This document shows, piece by piece, positions 23,306-31,371 of a DNA stretch of 64,000 nt. How positions within the stretch are numbered: position 1 is the first letter of the stretch; every line of letters starts with the position of its first letter. Location of the stretch: contig NZ_JALNTY010000001.1 in assembly GCF_023161965.1 (NCBI RefSeq), positions 62,001 through 126,000 on the forward strand. The letters run 5' to 3'. Source of the stretch: Anaerosoma tenue (GTDB lineage Bacteria; Actinomycetota; Coriobacteriia; Anaerosomatales; Anaerosomataceae). The notes beneath the pieces are model-generated. The model made no database searches. It saw nothing but the letters and a program-made list of their open reading frames with translations, and was not told the DNA's origin. A program made the position numbers and the translations under genes.

Positions 23306-24435
23306 AGCGTTCGAGCCTCATCGTACAGGTCTTTCTCGCGATCCTTGCCGTGTCGCTCGCGGCGGTGCTCGCCTCCGGGCTTGTCACCCGCGGCACGCTG
23401 TCCGGCGCCTTCGAGCGGTATCTGTCGGGCGGTATGGGTCCGATGATGGGTCCCGGCAGCGGCATGGGACGCCAGGTGTTCTTCGGAACGGCCGAGCAGG
23501 CGTTCCTCACCGGCGTCGATCGGGGGATCATCGTCTCCGCGCTGGTGGCGGTCGCGCTGGCCGCTCTAGGCGCGTGGCTGCTTGCGCGCTATCTCGTGCG
23601 TCCGTTGCGAGACCTGACCGCGGCGTCGCGCGCGTTGGCGAAAGGCCGCCTTGAGCATCGGGTCGAGGAGGCCGGGCCCGAGGAGGTGGCCGGTCTCGCT
23701 TCCGCCTTCAACGAGATGGCCGACTCGCTCTCGGAGTCGGAGGAGCTGCGCAGACGGATGGTGAGCGATGTCGCGCACGAGCTTCGCAACCCTATCGCGG
23801 CGCTGCGGGCGCAGATCGAAGGCATCGCCGATGGCGTGCTCGTTGCAGACGACCGGCAGGTCGCCTCGCTCGTGGAGGATGTGGGCACGCTGTCACGGCT
23901 GGTGGACGATCTCCAGGAGCTGTCGGTGGCCGAGGCAGGCCGCTTGCGCTACGACCGTACAGTCATCGACATCCGCGACACCGTACGGACGGCGGTGGAA
24001 CGCGCGGGTGTCATCGCTCCCGCCTCCGTGGCCGTGACGACCCGGGTGCCGGATCAGCTGGTGAGCGTGGACGCTGACGAGTTCCGCATCGGACAGGTGG
24101 TGAGGAACCTGCTCTCCAACGCGTTGCGTCACACCGGCGAAGGGAGCGTGACCGTGAGCGTCGAGCTGGCGGACGGGAGCCGTGCGCGCGTGTCCGTCAC
24201 CGATACCGGCGAAGGCATACCCGCCGACGACCTGGCGCACATCTGGGAGCGCTTCTATCGCGCCGACGCCGCGCGCTCGAAGGGGACGGGCGGCACAGGG
24301 CTGGGACTGGCCATCTCGCGTCGCATCATCGAGGACCACGGCGGCCGCGTGTTCGCGAGCAGCGCCGAGGGGCAGGGGAGCACGATCGGCTTCGAGATCC
24401 CGCTTGCGGCAGGGGCTCCCGCCGAAGGACGCTAG
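23302..24435 (+). CDS. Membrane sensor histidine kinase with Met-rich extracytoplasmic loop
   Basis: 377 aa, ATG overlapping the regulator stop. TM1 covers about residues 8-28 and TM2 about 73-95. The short external loop between them contains the Met/Gly-rich run GGMGPMMGPGSGMG. A HAMP domain (RPLRDLTAASRALAKGRLEH), the phospho-acceptor His159 in DVAHELRNP, the N box NLLSNALRHT and the G boxes DTGEGIP and GTGGTGLGLAIS follow. Met clusters of this kind bind Cu(I) or Ag(I) in other sensors, so metal sensing is a reasonable inference but not shown. Its stop shares CTAG with the convergent hydrogenase protease gene. Confidence 0.93.
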   Translation: MKRSSLIVQVFLAILAVSLAAVLASGLVTRGTLSGAFERYLSGGMGPMMGPGSGMGRQVFFGTAEQAFLTGVDRGIIVSALVAVALAALGAWLLARYLVRPLRDLTAASRALAKGRLEHRVEEAGPEEVAGLASAFNEMADSLSESEELRRRMVSDVAHELRNPIAALRAQIEGIADGVLVADDRQVASLVEDVGTLSRLVDDLQELSVAEAGRLRYDRTVIDIRDTVRTAVERAGVIAPASVAVTTRVPDQLVSVDADEFRIGQVVRNLLSNALRHTGEGSVTVSVELADGSRARVSVTDTGEGIPADDLAHIWERFYRADAARSKGTGGTGLGLAISRRIIEDHGGRVFASSAEGQGSTIGFEIPLAAGAPAEGR

Positions 24436-25049
24436 CTCTGCGCCTCTTCGGTCGGTGGGGTGCCTGCAGCGGCGCGCTCCGCCTGACGACGGGCGATATC
24501 CTCCTTGGCCTCGGCCACTGTGTCCCGGAACGCGTCGTCCGCATCCGGGCCCTCCAGGGGCTGGACCTCCACGCCACGTTCCTCGAGCACGTACAGGACC
24601 GCGGCGACCGCGCGCGGCACCGCCGCTTCCACCGGCTCAGAGAGTCCGATCGTGATCTCGGCAGGGCTCATGTCCTGCACCTGGATGCCGATGCAGTCGG
24701 CCTCGGGCATGAGCCCGATCAGCTTGGCGGCCTCGAGCACGTCCACGAACCGGATGTCATGGAGGGAGTGCATCACCTGGTTGGGGGCGAAGTCTTCAGG
24801 AGCTATCCGTACCACCGTGCCGGGCGGGTGGCCGCTGCCGTCCATGGCGTCCACTACGAGCATGAATTCGACACCCCGGAAGAGGTGCATCATCCCGAGT
24901 CCCATGGTCCCGGCGTCCATGATGCGCACGTCGTCGGGGAACCGGTAGTTCTTCTCGAGGTCCACGGCGACGCGGTTGCCGATGCCTTCGTCGAGCATCA
25001 GGACGTTGCCGATGCCGAGAACGAGGATGCGGGGTTCGATATCAGGCAC
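24432..25049 (-). CDS. Hydrogenase maturation protease
   Basis: 205 aa, HyaD/HybD-type endopeptidase. It has ILVLGIGNVLMLDEGIGNRV with the first Ni-binding acid near residue 20, IMDAGTMGLGMMHLF with the second, and the conserved HSLHDIRFVDVLEAA carrying the third ligand (His). It removes the C-terminal peptide of the NiFe(Se) large subunit after the metal centre is built. The substrate peptide is the roughly 20-residue tail after the CxxH of the neighbouring large subunit, present only if the internal UGA is read through. The protein has a longer acidic C-terminal tail than usual. A 148-bp gap with two hairpins separates it from the cytochrome b gene. Confidence 0.92.
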   Translation of the reverse strand: MPDIEPRILVLGIGNVLMLDEGIGNRVAVDLEKNYRFPDDVRIMDAGTMGLGMMHLFRGVEFMLVVDAMDGSGHPPGTVVRIAPEDFAPNQVMHSLHDIRFVDVLEAAKLIGLMPEADCIGIQVQDMSPAEITIGLSEPVEAAVPRAVAAVLYVLEERGVEVQPLEGPDADDAFRDTVAEAKEDIARRQAERAAAGTPPTEEAQS

Positions 25050-25197: not shown

Positions 25198-25830
25198 CTA
25201 GTGCTCCGTCTCCTTCCACAGGAAGATGATCTTGCTCGGCGAGAAGTTGTAGATGTTTGCGAGATACGCATGGATCATCGTGAACACGATGAACACCCAC
25301 ATCATGAAGTAGTGGATGATCCGCATGTTCATGGGGCCACCGACCAGTGCGGTGCCGCCGCTGAAGAATCCCCAGTCAGCCGTCGGGCCGTACAGGGCGA
25401 AGCCCGTGTACGCCATCAGGTAGGTGAGGGGCACGGTCGCCAGATAGGCGATCTTCTGCAGTGAGCCGTACTTGGCCGAGATGACGCCTTCCTTGCGGAA
25501 GAACAGGTAGTACTTCACCGTCTGCCAGAGCTGGTGCCTGTTCTTCTCCTGCGGCAGCCAGTTCTTGATGTCCGTCTCCACCTCACGCGAGCCGAGGTCG
25601 GTCGCGGTCTTCACGAAGAAGGCTGCGATGACCCGGAAGGTGAGGTTGATGATGATCACGAACATCGCGACGAAGTGCATGCCGCGGGCAACGCCCATGA
25701 AGCCGTCGAAGAACGGATAGTGGATGTAGAACCCGGAGAAGGCGAGCATGATCATGCAGATCAGATTGATCCAGTGCGTGATCACGAACACCAACGGGTG
25801 CGCCTCACGATAATGCGCCTGGGACGACAT
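25198..25830 (-). CDS. Ni/Fe-hydrogenase b-type cytochrome subunit
   Basis: 210 aa with four predicted membrane helices: VFVITHWINLICMIMLAFSG, a second near residues 50-72, a third near 128-150, and NMRIIHYFMMWVFIVFTMIH. Haem-ligand histidines are in THWIN, GMHFVAMF, IIHYF and MIHAY, as in HyaC/HupC proteins. It accepts electrons from the small subunit and reduces menaquinone. The ATG follows the large-subunit TAG with no spacer, and its GGGGGTGA ribosome site lies inside the extended large-subunit tail. This fits a strict operon order of small subunit, large subunit, cytochrome. Confidence 0.95.
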   Translation of the reverse strand: MSSQAHYREAHPLVFVITHWINLICMIMLAFSGFYIHYPFFDGFMGVARGMHFVAMFVIIINLTFRVIAAFFVKTATDLGSREVETDIKNWLPQEKNRHQLWQTVKYYLFFRKEGVISAKYGSLQKIAYLATVPLTYLMAYTGFALYGPTADWGFFSGGTALVGGPMNMRIIHYFMMWVFIVFTMIHAYLANIYNFSPSKIIFLWKETEH

Positions 25831-27498
25831 CTACATCACCCCCATGGGTGAGGACATCACAGTCGCTTCCTTGCCGGTCGCCGGTTCAAACACGTGAACC
25901 GCACATCCGATTCAAGGATCGAAGCTGTGGGCGATACGAAGCGCCTCGAGCGGCTTCTCCGCGTCCGCGATGGGTGCACCGATAAGCGCCTGCTCCATCG
26001 GGCCGGGCGTGCCGCTGGCGTCACGGGGAGCGATGTCCCACGTGGTGGGAGCGACCACCTGATAGTGATCGATCTTGCCGCCGTTGATGCCGATCCAGTG
26101 CGCGACCGAACCGCGGGGGGCCTCCCATGCGCCGACGCCGTCGCCGGTGTCCTTCTCGGCTGCCTTCCAGAAGCTGAGGTCGGTACCCTTCATGGCTTCG
26201 ACAAGCTCGTTGACCCACACGAGCGCGAGGTCTGCCACGTACGCGGCCTCGAGGTTGCGTGCAGCAACACGGCCGAGCAGGGACACGAGCACCTCAGGCT
26301 TGCCGGCGACGCCGAGCGCCTCGAGGGTCGAGTCGATGAGCGCTGCAGGGGTACGAACGCCTGCGGCTCCACCGGTGAGGTCCTTGCCGCCCTTCTCGTG
26401 GAGGTACGCGACCACCATGCGGGCGAGAGGACCGGACTCGGTCGACTCTTCCTTGCAGCGAACAGCCTTGCCGTAGGAGTACTTGTCCTCGGTGTTGTAT
26501 TCGGTGAACTTGACCTTCGTCTCCCCGTCCTTGGGGTTGAGGCCGGTTCCCGACTCATACCAGGAGTGCTCCACGTACTCGGTGACATCGTCCGGGCTGA
26601 CGTCCTCGAGGGACAGGCCACGACCGAAGCCACGGGGCAGGAAGCGGTTGACCGGGTCGCGGTCGGCTGCTTCGAAGACACCCCAGCTGAGGAAGTTGCC
26701 GGTACCGCCGCCGTACGTCGTCGCATCCAGGATGAACGGCGCGATGGCAAGCGTGTCCGGGATCAGCGCGGTGTCGATGAACTCCTTCACGCGCACGAAG
26801 CGGTAAAGGATGTCGTCGAGCTTGTCCACGGTGGGGACGAACGCCGTGCCGCCGGGCACCGATGTCATCGGGTGCGAGAACTTGCCGGCGATGATGGCCA
26901 CGATCTCGTTGGCGACAGCCTGCACTTCGAGCGCCTCGAGATAGTGCGCAGTGGCGATCAGGTCCAGCTCCGGCGGAAGCACGTAGCCGGGGTGGTCCCA
27001 GTAGTGGCCGGTGAAGATGGAGAGCTGGCCGTTCTCCGCGAACGCGGCGAGACGGGCAGCCACGGCGCCGAAATCGGCGGGGCGGGTGCCCGCGGCCTGC
27101 GCCAGCGCGTACGTGTCGGCGATGTCCGCGCTAAGCGCGTTGATCGGGTTGACGTAGTCGAGCGCGGCGAGGTGGTAGAACCACAGGATGTGGCTGTGCA
27201 GGAACTGCGCTGCCTCGAGCAGGTTACGCACGAGACGTCCGCCTTCAGGGATCTCGATGCCGAGCGCATCTTCGGTAGCCTGAGCGGACGCGTGGCTGTG
27301 CGAGATCGGGCAGACGCCGCAGATCCGCTGCGTCACGTAGAACGCGTCTTCGGGGCTGCGGTCGAGCATGACCGTCTCCATGCCACGGTACAGCGTGCCG
27401 GAGACCCATGCATCCACGACCTTGTTGTCCTGGACCTCTACCTCCACGCGGAGGTGACCCTCGATACGGGTGACGGGGTCGATAACAGAGCGTGCCAC
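25831..27498 (-). CDS. [NiFeSe] hydrogenase large subunit with in-frame UGA (selenocysteine)
   Basis: 555 aa when TGA 25912-25914 is read as selenocysteine (residue 529); otherwise 528 aa. GTG start overlaps the small-subunit TAG. The N-terminal metal motif RICGVCPISH (Cys60, Cys63, His67) is complete. Before the TGA the protein ends ALRIAHSFDP, and after it the frame continues IGCAVHVFEPATGKEATVM to TAG at 25831-25833, abutting the cytochrome b ATG. With Sec the motif is DPUxxCxxH, exactly the [NiFeSe] form. Without it the enzyme lacks two Ni ligands. The tail after CAVH matches the usual cleaved propeptide. Readthrough is inferred. The sequence and its reading frame are direct observation. 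Confidence 0.93.
25882..25914 (-). promoter_or_regulatory. Candidate bacterial SECIS element at the hydrogenase UGA
   Basis: On the mRNA, CGGUUCA pairs perfectly with UGAACCG (7 bp) around a 6-nt loop CGUGUU. The stem starts 10 nt after the UGA, close to the roughly 11-nt spacing of the E. coli fdhF element. The loop carries a G-U as expected for SelB contact. It is an inference from geometry, and the stem also encodes residues VHVFEP. Confidence 0.75.
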
Positions 27499-28712
27499 TA
27501 CTTATCGCCTCCCTTCTTCATCCGCTTGCGGTCATGGACCTTCATGTCCTCCATGGGAGGACCGTCGCCGATGCGGCCGGCGGCCTTCATGCCGAGACCG
27601 TGTGCGACGAGGGCCGCGGCAGCGACGCCGCCGACGACAGCACCCACGCTGCCGGGCTGGACGTTGCCGAGGGTGTCGCCCATCTGCATGCTCGACAGGC
27701 GCTTGAAGAACGGAGCGTTGTTGTCGACCCAGTTCAGGCCGCCGCAGCCGATGCACGGGGCGCCCGACTGTACACACCAGCTGACCGAACGGTTCCAGCG
27801 GGTGATGGGGCACTGCGTGTAGGTCTGCGGACCCTTGCAGCCGACCTTGTAGAGGCAGTAACCCATGGCCTCTTCGGGGCTGCCGAACTCGGTGACGAAC
27901 TCACCGTTCTCGAAGTGTCCGCGGCGCGGGCAGTTGTCGTGGATCGTGGAGCCCACGATGTACTCCGGATACAGGAGTGTGACGTCCGCATCACGGTAGT
28001 TGTCGCGGTAGTCCTTTGCGAGCAGGGCTGTCTTGTCGAGGAACGTCGCCGGATCGTCTTCGGCGACGAGCAGCCACTGCACGACCATGGCGACGACCCA
28101 CTCGGGGCTCGTCGGGCAGCAGGGGAGGTTGACCACCGGGGTGGCCACCTTCACGCTGTCGAGGAACGACTGGACACCGATGCCGCCGGCGGGGTTCGGG
28201 TGGGCATAGACCCAGCCGCCGTCCACCGCGCATGCGCCCACCGCGAGGATCGCCTGAGCGCCTGCGGCGGCCTTCTCCAGGATGTCCTTGCCCTTGTGGC
28301 CGTTGACGAGAAGGGTGTTCCCGTCCTCGCCCATCATGACGGCGCCTTCGTAGATCAGCAGGTAGTTGCCGGCCTCGATGGTGTCGTCGACGTTCTTCTC
28401 GGCGTACTCACCGGCGGCGGCCATGATCGTCTCGAAGTAGTTGAGTGAGAGCAGTTCGAGCACGATCGTGGCAACGTCGGGCGAGTCCACCTGAGCCATG
28501 GACTCCGTGCAGCCGGTGCACGAGCCGCCGTTGAGCCAGAGCGCGGGCTTCAGCTTCGCGCCTTTCTCGACGGCCGCAGCGATCTGCGGAGCGGCTGCTT
28601 CGGTGAGCCCGAGCATCGCGGCGACGTAGCCGCAGTACTTCATGAAGTCGCGACGGCTGACACCGCGTACCGCAAGCAGGTCGTAAATCGCACCGTGCGC
28701 CTCTTGCGCCAT
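27498..28712 (-). CDS. Ni/Fe-hydrogenase small subunit, Tat-exported and membrane-anchored
   Basis: 404 aa from the ATG at 28712, which has AAGGAGG 8 nt upstream. An in-frame GTG at 28721 directly abuts that site and is unlikely. A Tat signal (SRRDFMKYCGYVAAMLGL, RR at 20-21) directs export of the folded complex. Fe-S ligands are visible: proximal GSCTGC (Cys65/68), GACAVDGG and LPCCPTSPE, distal STIHDNCPRRGHF with YCLYKVGC, and medial QCPITRW with SGAPCIGC. A C-terminal hydrophobic helix (VGAVVGGVAAAALVAHGLG) anchors it beside the cytochrome. It is a periplasm-facing (outside) uptake-type enzyme by this architecture. Confidence 0.95.
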   Translation of the reverse strand: MAQEAHGAIYDLLAVRGVSRRDFMKYCGYVAAMLGLTEAAAPQIAAAVEKGAKLKPALWLNGGSCTGCTESMAQVDSPDVATIVLELLSLNYFETIMAAAGEYAEKNVDDTIEAGNYLLIYEGAVMMGEDGNTLLVNGHKGKDILEKAAAGAQAILAVGACAVDGGWVYAHPNPAGGIGVQSFLDSVKVATPVVNLPCCPTSPEWVVAMVVQWLLVAEDDPATFLDKTALLAKDYRDNYRDADVTLLYPEYIVGSTIHDNCPRRGHFENGEFVTEFGSPEEAMGYCLYKVGCKGPQTYTQCPITRWNRSVSWCVQSGAPCIGCGGLNWVDNNAPFFKRLSSMQMGDTLGNVQPGSVGAVVGGVAAAALVAHGLGMKAAGRIGDGPPMEDMKVHDRKRMKKGGDK

Positions 28713-29224
28713 GCCATACACCTCCTTGGTGTTGGAACGTAGCCTACAGTGCGGTTGAAACTGAGTGACCGGGCCTTACGCCCGGCACGCGCGTATCCCT
28801 CCTCCCTCCTTTCGCGCGTACGGAAACGGGTAGCCTGAAACGCGGTACGCGGTGTCCCGGTGCGGGACGGTGCGGACCGCGAGGCCTTCTAAGAGAGGTG
28901 ATCGAGCCGATGTAGGGAGGGGTGGGTCGGAGAGCATGGACCGACCAGTGCCAGAATGAGGCGCTGGTCGTGCATCCGTGGTCCGTGATGGGTAGCACTG
29001 GATACAATGAGCGTGCAGGCGCATAGGTCCCGTTATCCCCTCACCAAGCCGCGTCCGGCTCCGATGCATAGGATACATGCACCCGCTGTCTCGCGTCCAT
29101 GCTCTTGGGGCAAGTGCTTCGTGTCACATATGTGTGCCGAGCGGGTCGCGGGACGGCAGGAATCGGCCCGCGCACGTCTAATAGTGACGTGTGGGCAACC
29201 GGCGGCGTGGAACGGGGTGAGCGG
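28713..29224. other. Divergent intergenic region upstream of the hydrogenase operon
   Basis: 512 bases without a convincing gene. On the hydrogenase side, CCGGGC/GCCCGG (5-nt loop, near 28770-28786) and ACGCGCG/CGCGCGT flank a purine-rich, GGAGG-containing stretch, so the 5' UTR can fold. Toward the plus-strand gene there is a -10-like TACAAT (29003-29008), a 10-bp palindrome CACATATGTG (29125-29134) and TGCAT/ATGCA arms near 29063-29079. Promoters for both directions should lie here, but no -35 is clear enough to call. Confidence 0.45.
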
Positions 29225-30355: not shown

Positions 30356-31054
30356 ATGTCAACGGCATCAGCGAGATCGGTCATAGTCGCCAGACTCCGG
30401 GAAGACCCCGTGTTCGCTCCGCTCAGCGAGGACGAGCTCGACTCGTTGGCTTCCGTGATGTCATATCGCGAGTACCCCAAGGGAGCGTTCATCGTCACCA
30501 AGGGCGACCTGTCGAACGCGGTCTTCATGCTGGTCGGCGGTCGTGTGAAGATATCGCTTGCCTCGCCGGAGGGCCGGGAGCTGGCCCTAGATTACCTCGA
30601 ACCGCCGTCGTACTTCGGCGAGATGGGAACCACGGACGTCGATGGGCGGTCGGCCGATGTGATAGCCACCACCGACGTGGAGGTGGTGATCATCGAAGAG
30701 AAGGACCTCGAGTACGTCTTCCGCATCCGTCCTCAACTCGCGGTGACCCTGGTCGCCTCGTTCTCTGACAGGCTGCGCGAGATGGTCACGCGTCTCGAGG
30801 GGATGGCGTTCCACGATGCGACCCACCGCGTCATGCGCGTGATGCTCAACGTGGCCACGGCCTCGTATGAGTCGCGGGGAGTCCCGGTCATCGAGGGCCT
30901 GACGCACTACGAGATCGCAACCTTGGCCGGGACGTCACGGGAGACCGCAAGCAGGGTCGTCTCGAACCTGGCGCGGGAGGGCGTCGTCGCCACGAAGGGC
31001 CGAAAGATCGTGGTCGACCTGTTCGGGTTGCGCGATCTCGTGGAGAAAGACTGA
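30356..31054 (+). CDS. Crp/Fnr family transcriptional regulator
   Basis: 232 aa, ATG with only a weak ribosome site. The cyclic-nucleotide-binding fold spans about residues 15-130 (FAPLSEDELDSLASVMSYRE, KGAFIVTKGDLSNAVFMLVG, YFGEMGTTDVDGRSADVIAT). A helical linker and a C-terminal HTH_Crp domain follow (THYEIATLAGTSRETASRVV, then LAREGVVATKGRKIVV). It has no N-terminal Cys cluster, so it is not an Fe-S FNR. The GEM motif is present, but the usual R-S of the cAMP site is altered (RSADV), so the ligand is uncertain. Neighbours are DUF2249, HAD and cytochrome b5-like genes. Confidence 0.93.
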   Translation: MSTASARSVIVARLREDPVFAPLSEDELDSLASVMSYREYPKGAFIVTKGDLSNAVFMLVGGRVKISLASPEGRELALDYLEPPSYFGEMGTTDVDGRSADVIATTDVEVVIIEEKDLEYVFRIRPQLAVTLVASFSDRLREMVTRLEGMAFHDATHRVMRVMLNVATASYESRGVPVIEGLTHYEIATLAGTSRETASRVVSNLAREGVVATKGRKIVVDLFGLRDLVEKD

Positions 31055-31143
31055 GCGTATCCGCTCTCATGGCGTGTCGCGTCCCATGTGTGCCTCGCGG
31101 GTATGAACCTTAGGTGTCCGGACCACATCCGAAGGGAGTCGCC

Positions 31144-31371
31144 GTGAAGGAGTTCACGCTCGAGGAGCTGAAGAAGTACGACGGCCAGGATGGGAGGCCC
31201 GCCTACGTGGCGTACGACGGCGTCGTCTACGACGTGTCGGACAGCGCGATGTGGGACGATGGCGATCACATGGGGGCGCATTCGGCGGGGGAGGACCTCA
31301 CCGAGGCGCATGACGAGGCGCCGCACGACGTCCACATCCTCGACTACCCCAAGGTGGGGACGCTGGTCTAG
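31144..31371 (+). CDS. Cytochrome b5-like haem/steroid-binding protein
   Basis: 75 aa, GTG with GAAGGGAG upstream. The fold signature is FTLEELKKYDGQDGRPAYVA, then YDVSDSAMW. Candidate haem-ligand histidines lie in GDHMGAHSAGED and EAPHDVH. It is soluble with no signal peptide and represents the small bacterial clade of this family found in anaerobes. It may carry electrons or bind haem. The stop TAG overlaps the convergent methyltransferase stop in the tetramer CTAG. Confidence 0.87.
   Translation: MKEFTLEELKKYDGQDGRPAYVAYDGVVYDVSDSAMWDDGDHMGAHSAGEDLTEAHDEAPHDVHILDYPKVGTLV

Follow-up and report, generated by a model that had tools for sequence, protein, structure and literature searches.

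The hydrogenase locus of Anaerosoma tenue raises the question of whether the in-frame TGA near the end of its large-subunit gene is a stop codon or is read as selenocysteine (Sec), the latter being the proposal of a preliminary description made from the DNA letters alone. Anaerosoma tenue is a mud-volcano bacterium whose genome (99% complete) spans 2,107,022 bp on 6 contigs. Its strain M08DHB belongs to the order Anaerosomatales, formerly OPB41, of the class Coriobacteriia, and grows on H2 with thiosulfate or S0 (PMC9686372); this host agrees with the "probable actinobacterium" to which the DNA had first been attributed. The species description places the enzyme in HydDB group 1i [NiFe], has no word beginning with 'seleno' in its text, and gives four gene products under three accessions (PMC9686372). 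We analyzed a window of 64,000 nucleotides, in which the following features were located:

24432-25049, minus strand: hydrogenase maturation endopeptidase of the HyaD/HybD family (Pfam PF01750; TIGR00072 above cut-off)
25198-25830, minus strand: hydrogenase b-type cytochrome subunit (Pfam PF01292; TIGR02125 match slightly under cut-off)
25831-27498, minus strand: hydrogenase large subunit, GTG start and TAG stop, 555 aa with the TGA read as Sec (U529)
25831-25893, minus strand: C-terminal tail past the conserved His (VFEPATGKEATVMSSPMGVM) plus stop codon, putative propeptide
25868-25911, minus strand: predicted bacterial SECIS element directly 3' of the TGA, with a 7-bp stem CGGUUCA / UGAACCG
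25912-25914, minus strand: in-frame TGA, predicted to encode Sec as the Ni ligand in DPUxxCxxH
27498-28721, minus strand: hydrogenase small subunit carrying a Tat signal (RRDFMK) and, at its C-terminus, a hydrophobic anchor

The gene order of small subunit, large subunit, cytochrome b and maturation protease is backed by profile matches, and the matches to PF01750 and TIGR00072 bear out the earlier claim that a maturation protease is encoded beside the large subunit. The GTG start of the large-subunit gene (27498) overlaps the stop of the small-subunit gene, and the frame is open for 528 codons up to the TGA at 25914-25912. This TGA is the only internal stop between 27498 and 25831 and lies in the context HSFDP-U-IGCAVH; the frame after it reads IGCAVHVFEPATGKEATVMSSPMGVM and ends with a TAG at 25833-25831, which adjoins the cytochrome b ATG at 25830. 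Re-reading the sequence thus reproduced the frame first described (HSFDP-TGA-IGCAVHVF up to a TAG right before the cytochrome b gene) and the 81 bp between the TGA and the next gene, TAG included. The count of 20 codons past IGCAVHVF has to be corrected to 18, while the tail past the conserved His does comprise 20 residues.

The large subunit matched Pfam PF00374 with 510 bits over residues 38-535. In an alignment of 41 sequences the Ni-ligand positions C60, C63, C/U529 and C532 are invariant; the TGA falls on the codon for the third of these ligands, where a Sec or Cys side chain binds Ni, so that the protein has Cys at three positions and the Sec codon at the terminal one of DPUxxCxxH. Two of the four invariant residues lie at or after the TGA, in line with the earlier remark that stopping there costs two Ni ligands. 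An AlphaFold model of the large subunit (pLDDT 88.6, pTM 0.90) was confident outside the tail and aligned end to end with known large subunits, with Z-scores of about 50 for [NiFe] and about 49 for [NiFeSe] enzymes; the 20 residues past His535 showed pLDDT values below 50.

The preliminary description had made the Sec reading depend on selA, selB, selD and tRNA-Sec, and would have abandoned it had the whole machinery been missing. All four were found in the host genome above cut-offs: SelA (1e-156), SelB (6e-114) and SelD (1.5e-111) by profile search, and tRNA-Sec with 72.5 bits, which ARAGORN also calls as tRNA-SeC (UCA). They form one cluster, selD-selA-selB-tRNA-Sec, on contig 4 (C4:155460-160440). 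SelD has an in-frame TGA of its own (STKAG-U-AAKWG; L010:3490-3492), as does the formate dehydrogenase alpha subunit FdhA (ARI-U-HSATVQGLG; L170; C1:892384-893169), and a short G-containing stem-loop follows each of the three TGAs. Other organisms are able to read UGA as Trp or Cys, and a suppressor tRNA could be imagined to insert one of these residues here instead of Sec. We consider this very improbable, given the full machinery with its UCA tRNA, the TGAs where SelD and FdhA have their catalytic Sec, and a SECIS that follows the hydrogenase codon only where that codon is TGA (see below).

Next, we considered how far the TGA is conserved. The ten relatives found first in the public genome collection, 78-99% identical, all have TGA at the same codon, and within the window's clade the 55 Sec sequences keep it even where identity falls to about 50%. 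We also surveyed 248 genomes of Coriobacteriia, taking the full-length best homologue of each. One TGA was present in practically every such homologue of the window's family and in most of those of its order, and was absent from homologues in several other families. Extraction yielded 70 distinct Sec-type genes (TGA) and 44 Cys-type genes (TGC or TGT at that codon). Resequencing that showed TGC or TGT in the window's gene had been named as grounds for giving up the Sec reading; numerous independent assemblies have TGA here. Although translation table 11 ends the frame at the TGA, a true stop or a sequencing error, leaving a 528-aa truncated protein or a pseudogene, is therefore extremely improbable: an error is refuted by the recurrence of the TGA in 70 distinct genes across separate assemblies, the frame past the TGA is open, conserved and under codon-level constraint, and a protein ending there would be without half of its invariant Ni ligands.

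SelA was found in 61 of 75 Sec-type genomes versus 66 of 173 other genomes (Fisher p 2e-10, with kinship ignored and counts tallied by hand from the survey listings). The association is one-sided, as would be expected; many Cys-type genomes probably retain SelA for other selenoproteins. In a member of the order that has only a Cys copy (G019, 99% complete), SelA and SelB were not found. The profile search also found no SelA in several assemblies with a Sec-type gene, and in the most complete of them, G045 (L038, 98%), G049 (L037, 96%) and G073 (96%), neither SelA nor SelB exceeded the cut-off. These are draft assemblies, and loss of contigs is the likely cause, since one missing 5-kb cluster would suffice. 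Three Anaerosomatales genomes (G028, G043 and G123) encode Sec and Cys hydrogenases of group 1i type together (L089, L090, L091; L054, L057, L070), and each pair may possibly represent selenium-dependent isoenzymes. One Sec-type gene (L068 in G091) has the motif DPUVGCGVQ, in which the His is replaced by Gln, and an altered SECIS loop.

To examine the SECIS element, we compared the 44 nt past the codon among the 70 Sec and 44 Cys genes; a search of the window with the Rfam library had given no SECIS match. In the window, the apical loop is CGUGUU, with the loop G 19 nt past the UGA. A stem-loop directly downstream was found in 70/70 Sec genes and is lacking in the 44 Cys genes, and the mean folding z-score of the 44 nt was -2.0 in Sec genes against -0.1 in Cys genes (p 3e-17; the z-scores rest on simple shuffles of related sequences). 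The core stem pairs columns 11-17 with 24-30 in 54 Sec genes, with 6-7 of 7 positions paired; the remaining 16 have it one register over, with 5-7 paired positions. Cys genes have at most 6 stem pairs and mostly 2-5. In one Cys-type gene (L160), 6 of 7 stem positions still pair downstream of the codon; this stem is possibly the remnant of a SECIS from a Sec-to-Cys change.

Among 36 distinct main-register sequences, 98% of the cells pair, and both sides have changed in 24 cells. The covariation score of these sequences was 0.237, against 0.054 when shuffled (0/500), and it also exceeded that of all slid registers. Pair 12-29 is GC in 26 sequences and CG in 10, with no mispairs, whereas pairs 13-17 are invariant in the main register and so are uninformative for covariation. 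Compensation links codons of different residues: where GCG-GTT (Ala-Val) precedes the His, the tail has CCG (Pro); GGC-GTT (Gly-Val) is matched by CGC (Arg), and GCC-GTT by CGG. Synonymous codons are frozen in the same stretch. The His codon is CAC in 70/70 Sec genes, while CAC and CAT are equal in Cys genes; the Glu codon is GAA in 54/54 Sec genes against a background GAA use of 26%, and GAG in 22/25 Cys genes; and main-register genes hold to GTT although they otherwise prefer GTC or GTG. Since the 3' strand of the SECIS stem lies in the tail, the compensating changes and the frozen codons suggest that a tail expected to be removed in maturation appears to be shaped by RNA pairing. Taken with the machinery, the clade-wide TGA and the invariant Ni ligands, this covarying element upholds the proposal made at the outset, and it is nearly certain that the TGA at 25914-25912 encodes Sec.

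If this is so, then it introduces the question of what kind of hydrogenase this is. [NiFeSe] hydrogenases, described mostly from sulfate reducers, are prized for H2 evolution and for their recovery from O2. One rival reading is a HysA-type (group 1a) enzyme gained from sulfate reducers. The active-site motif is as in D. vulgaris HysA (DPULGCAVH), with Sec in DPUxxCxxH and Cys at the other three ligands; the fold is alike (Z about 49, rmsd 1.7-1.8 over 466 residues); and the NCBIfam models NF033181 and NF045518 match the large subunit strongly. Their scores, however, lie under the curated cut-offs (497/600 and 410/780 bits), and in a PDB search with the large subunit the D. gigas [NiFe] enzyme (436 bits) outscored HysA (322 bits). 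The window enzyme also differs from HysA of Desulfovibrio and Desulfomicrobium in length (555 versus about 500 residues) and tail (20 versus 15 residues), and its locus includes a gene for a cytochrome b subunit and a small subunit with a hydrophobic anchor.

We then computed a tree without the Sec motif and the tail, in which HysA was represented by one reference whose sequence is that of PDB 5jsu. The window's clade comprised 27 Sec rows and one Cys row and was joined, with 99/97 support, by a sister clade of Cys enzymes from the same class; both lie within a Coriobacteriia branch of 42 rows (100/100). HysA-like enzymes were placed elsewhere, among Cys enzymes. Forcing the window's Sec clade together with the HysA-like Sec rows cost 385 log units (AU p 5.8e-67), which leaves an origin from the HysA of sulfate reducers with scarcely any probability. 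The Sec reading of the preliminary description thus stands, with the qualification that the enzyme groups with those of group 1i. On the tree and the published HydDB classification of the locus, the enzyme is assigned to group 1i (Coriobacteriia type), and by its predicted active-site composition the large subunit is a [NiFeSe] enzyme, not a HysA orthologue. The group 1i Cys enzymes (PMC5037454) share with it a 20-residue type of tail ending in GVx and a medial-cluster Cys (SWC) in the small subunit; unlike it, they mostly have DPCTACAVH and no SECIS stem.

A second Sec family, found in other Anaerosomatales and Actinomycetota (L093-L097, L118, L142-L149), has a near-identical SECIS stem but differs in its motif (DPUMACSVH), its 15-residue tail and a clade of its own. 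Forcing the window's Sec clade together with this family cost 63 log units (p 3e-4), so that a single clade with either other Sec group was rejected by the AU test. At least five Sec/Cys changes are required on the tree, through either independent gain or repeated loss of an old Sec. HysA-like Sec hydrogenases also occur in other Actinomycetota (L152, L153, L154), and L153, though placed in the HysA branch, has the stem GGTTCACGTGATTGAACC seen in many genes of the window's clade. We lean slightly towards a Sec origin independent of HysA (or an old one, lost in the Cys sister), with a propeptide dictated by pairing and with Sec/Cys pairs in some genomes that are possibly switched by selenium.

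Based on these results, we propose that the hydrogenase of this locus is very probably a respiratory H2-uptake enzyme, exported by Tat and anchored in the membrane, that belongs to the Sec branch of group 1i and has a selenoprotein as large subunit. SelB with tRNA-Sec would decode UGA 529 as Sec, guided by the stem-loop directly 3' of it, and Sec would take the place of the terminal Ni-ligand Cys in the C-terminal CxxC pair to give a [NiFeSe] centre. Hyp proteins would insert the metals into the large subunit. As in known families, the HyaD/HybD-type protease would then cut after His535, removing the 20-residue tail together with half of the SECIS, and the large subunit would be exported through Tat together with the small subunit; three Fe-S clusters would relay electrons from H2 to cytochrome b. 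The gene order supports the predicted respiratory H2 uptake by way of cytochrome b, and the strain grows on H2 (PMC9686372). A cytochrome b subunit (25198-25830) is encoded, yet no quinones were detected according to the species description (PMC9686372).

In HydDB, [NiFeSe] variants appear under groups 1a, 3a and 3c only (PMC5037454), and such enzymes are known outside deltaproteobacteria, for example in Nautilia (PMC2628731). In the open-access literature, a scope that makes for weak evidence, we found no paper linking selenocysteine and hydrogenase to Coriobacteriia, none linking NiFeSe and selenocysteine to Actinomycetota, and none linking a selenoprotein to OPB41. Given this and the HydDB listing, the enzyme is apparently a widespread [NiFeSe] variant of group 1i that has so far gone unreported; in our survey of homologues, Sec-type hydrogenases were widespread in Actinomycetota. 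Much of an actinobacterial class, including a cultured hydrogenotroph, thus appears to use [NiFeSe] enzymes, although that of Anaerosoma counts as [NiFe] in HydDB and in the species description, and annotation with table 11 drops two active-site ligands across a clade. The Sec and Cys sister clades, at times within one genome, offer a natural test bed for what selenium buys.

The small subunit has a Cys (SWCV) at the medial cluster where the D. gigas [NiFe] enzyme has Pro. Such a Cys instead of Pro is known of [NiFeSe] enzymes; a tie between this residue and Sec was rejected, since the Cys-type relatives share it. Upstream of the hydrogenase operon, the window also encodes a Crp-family regulator (30356-31054) and a small cytochrome b5-like protein (31114-31371).
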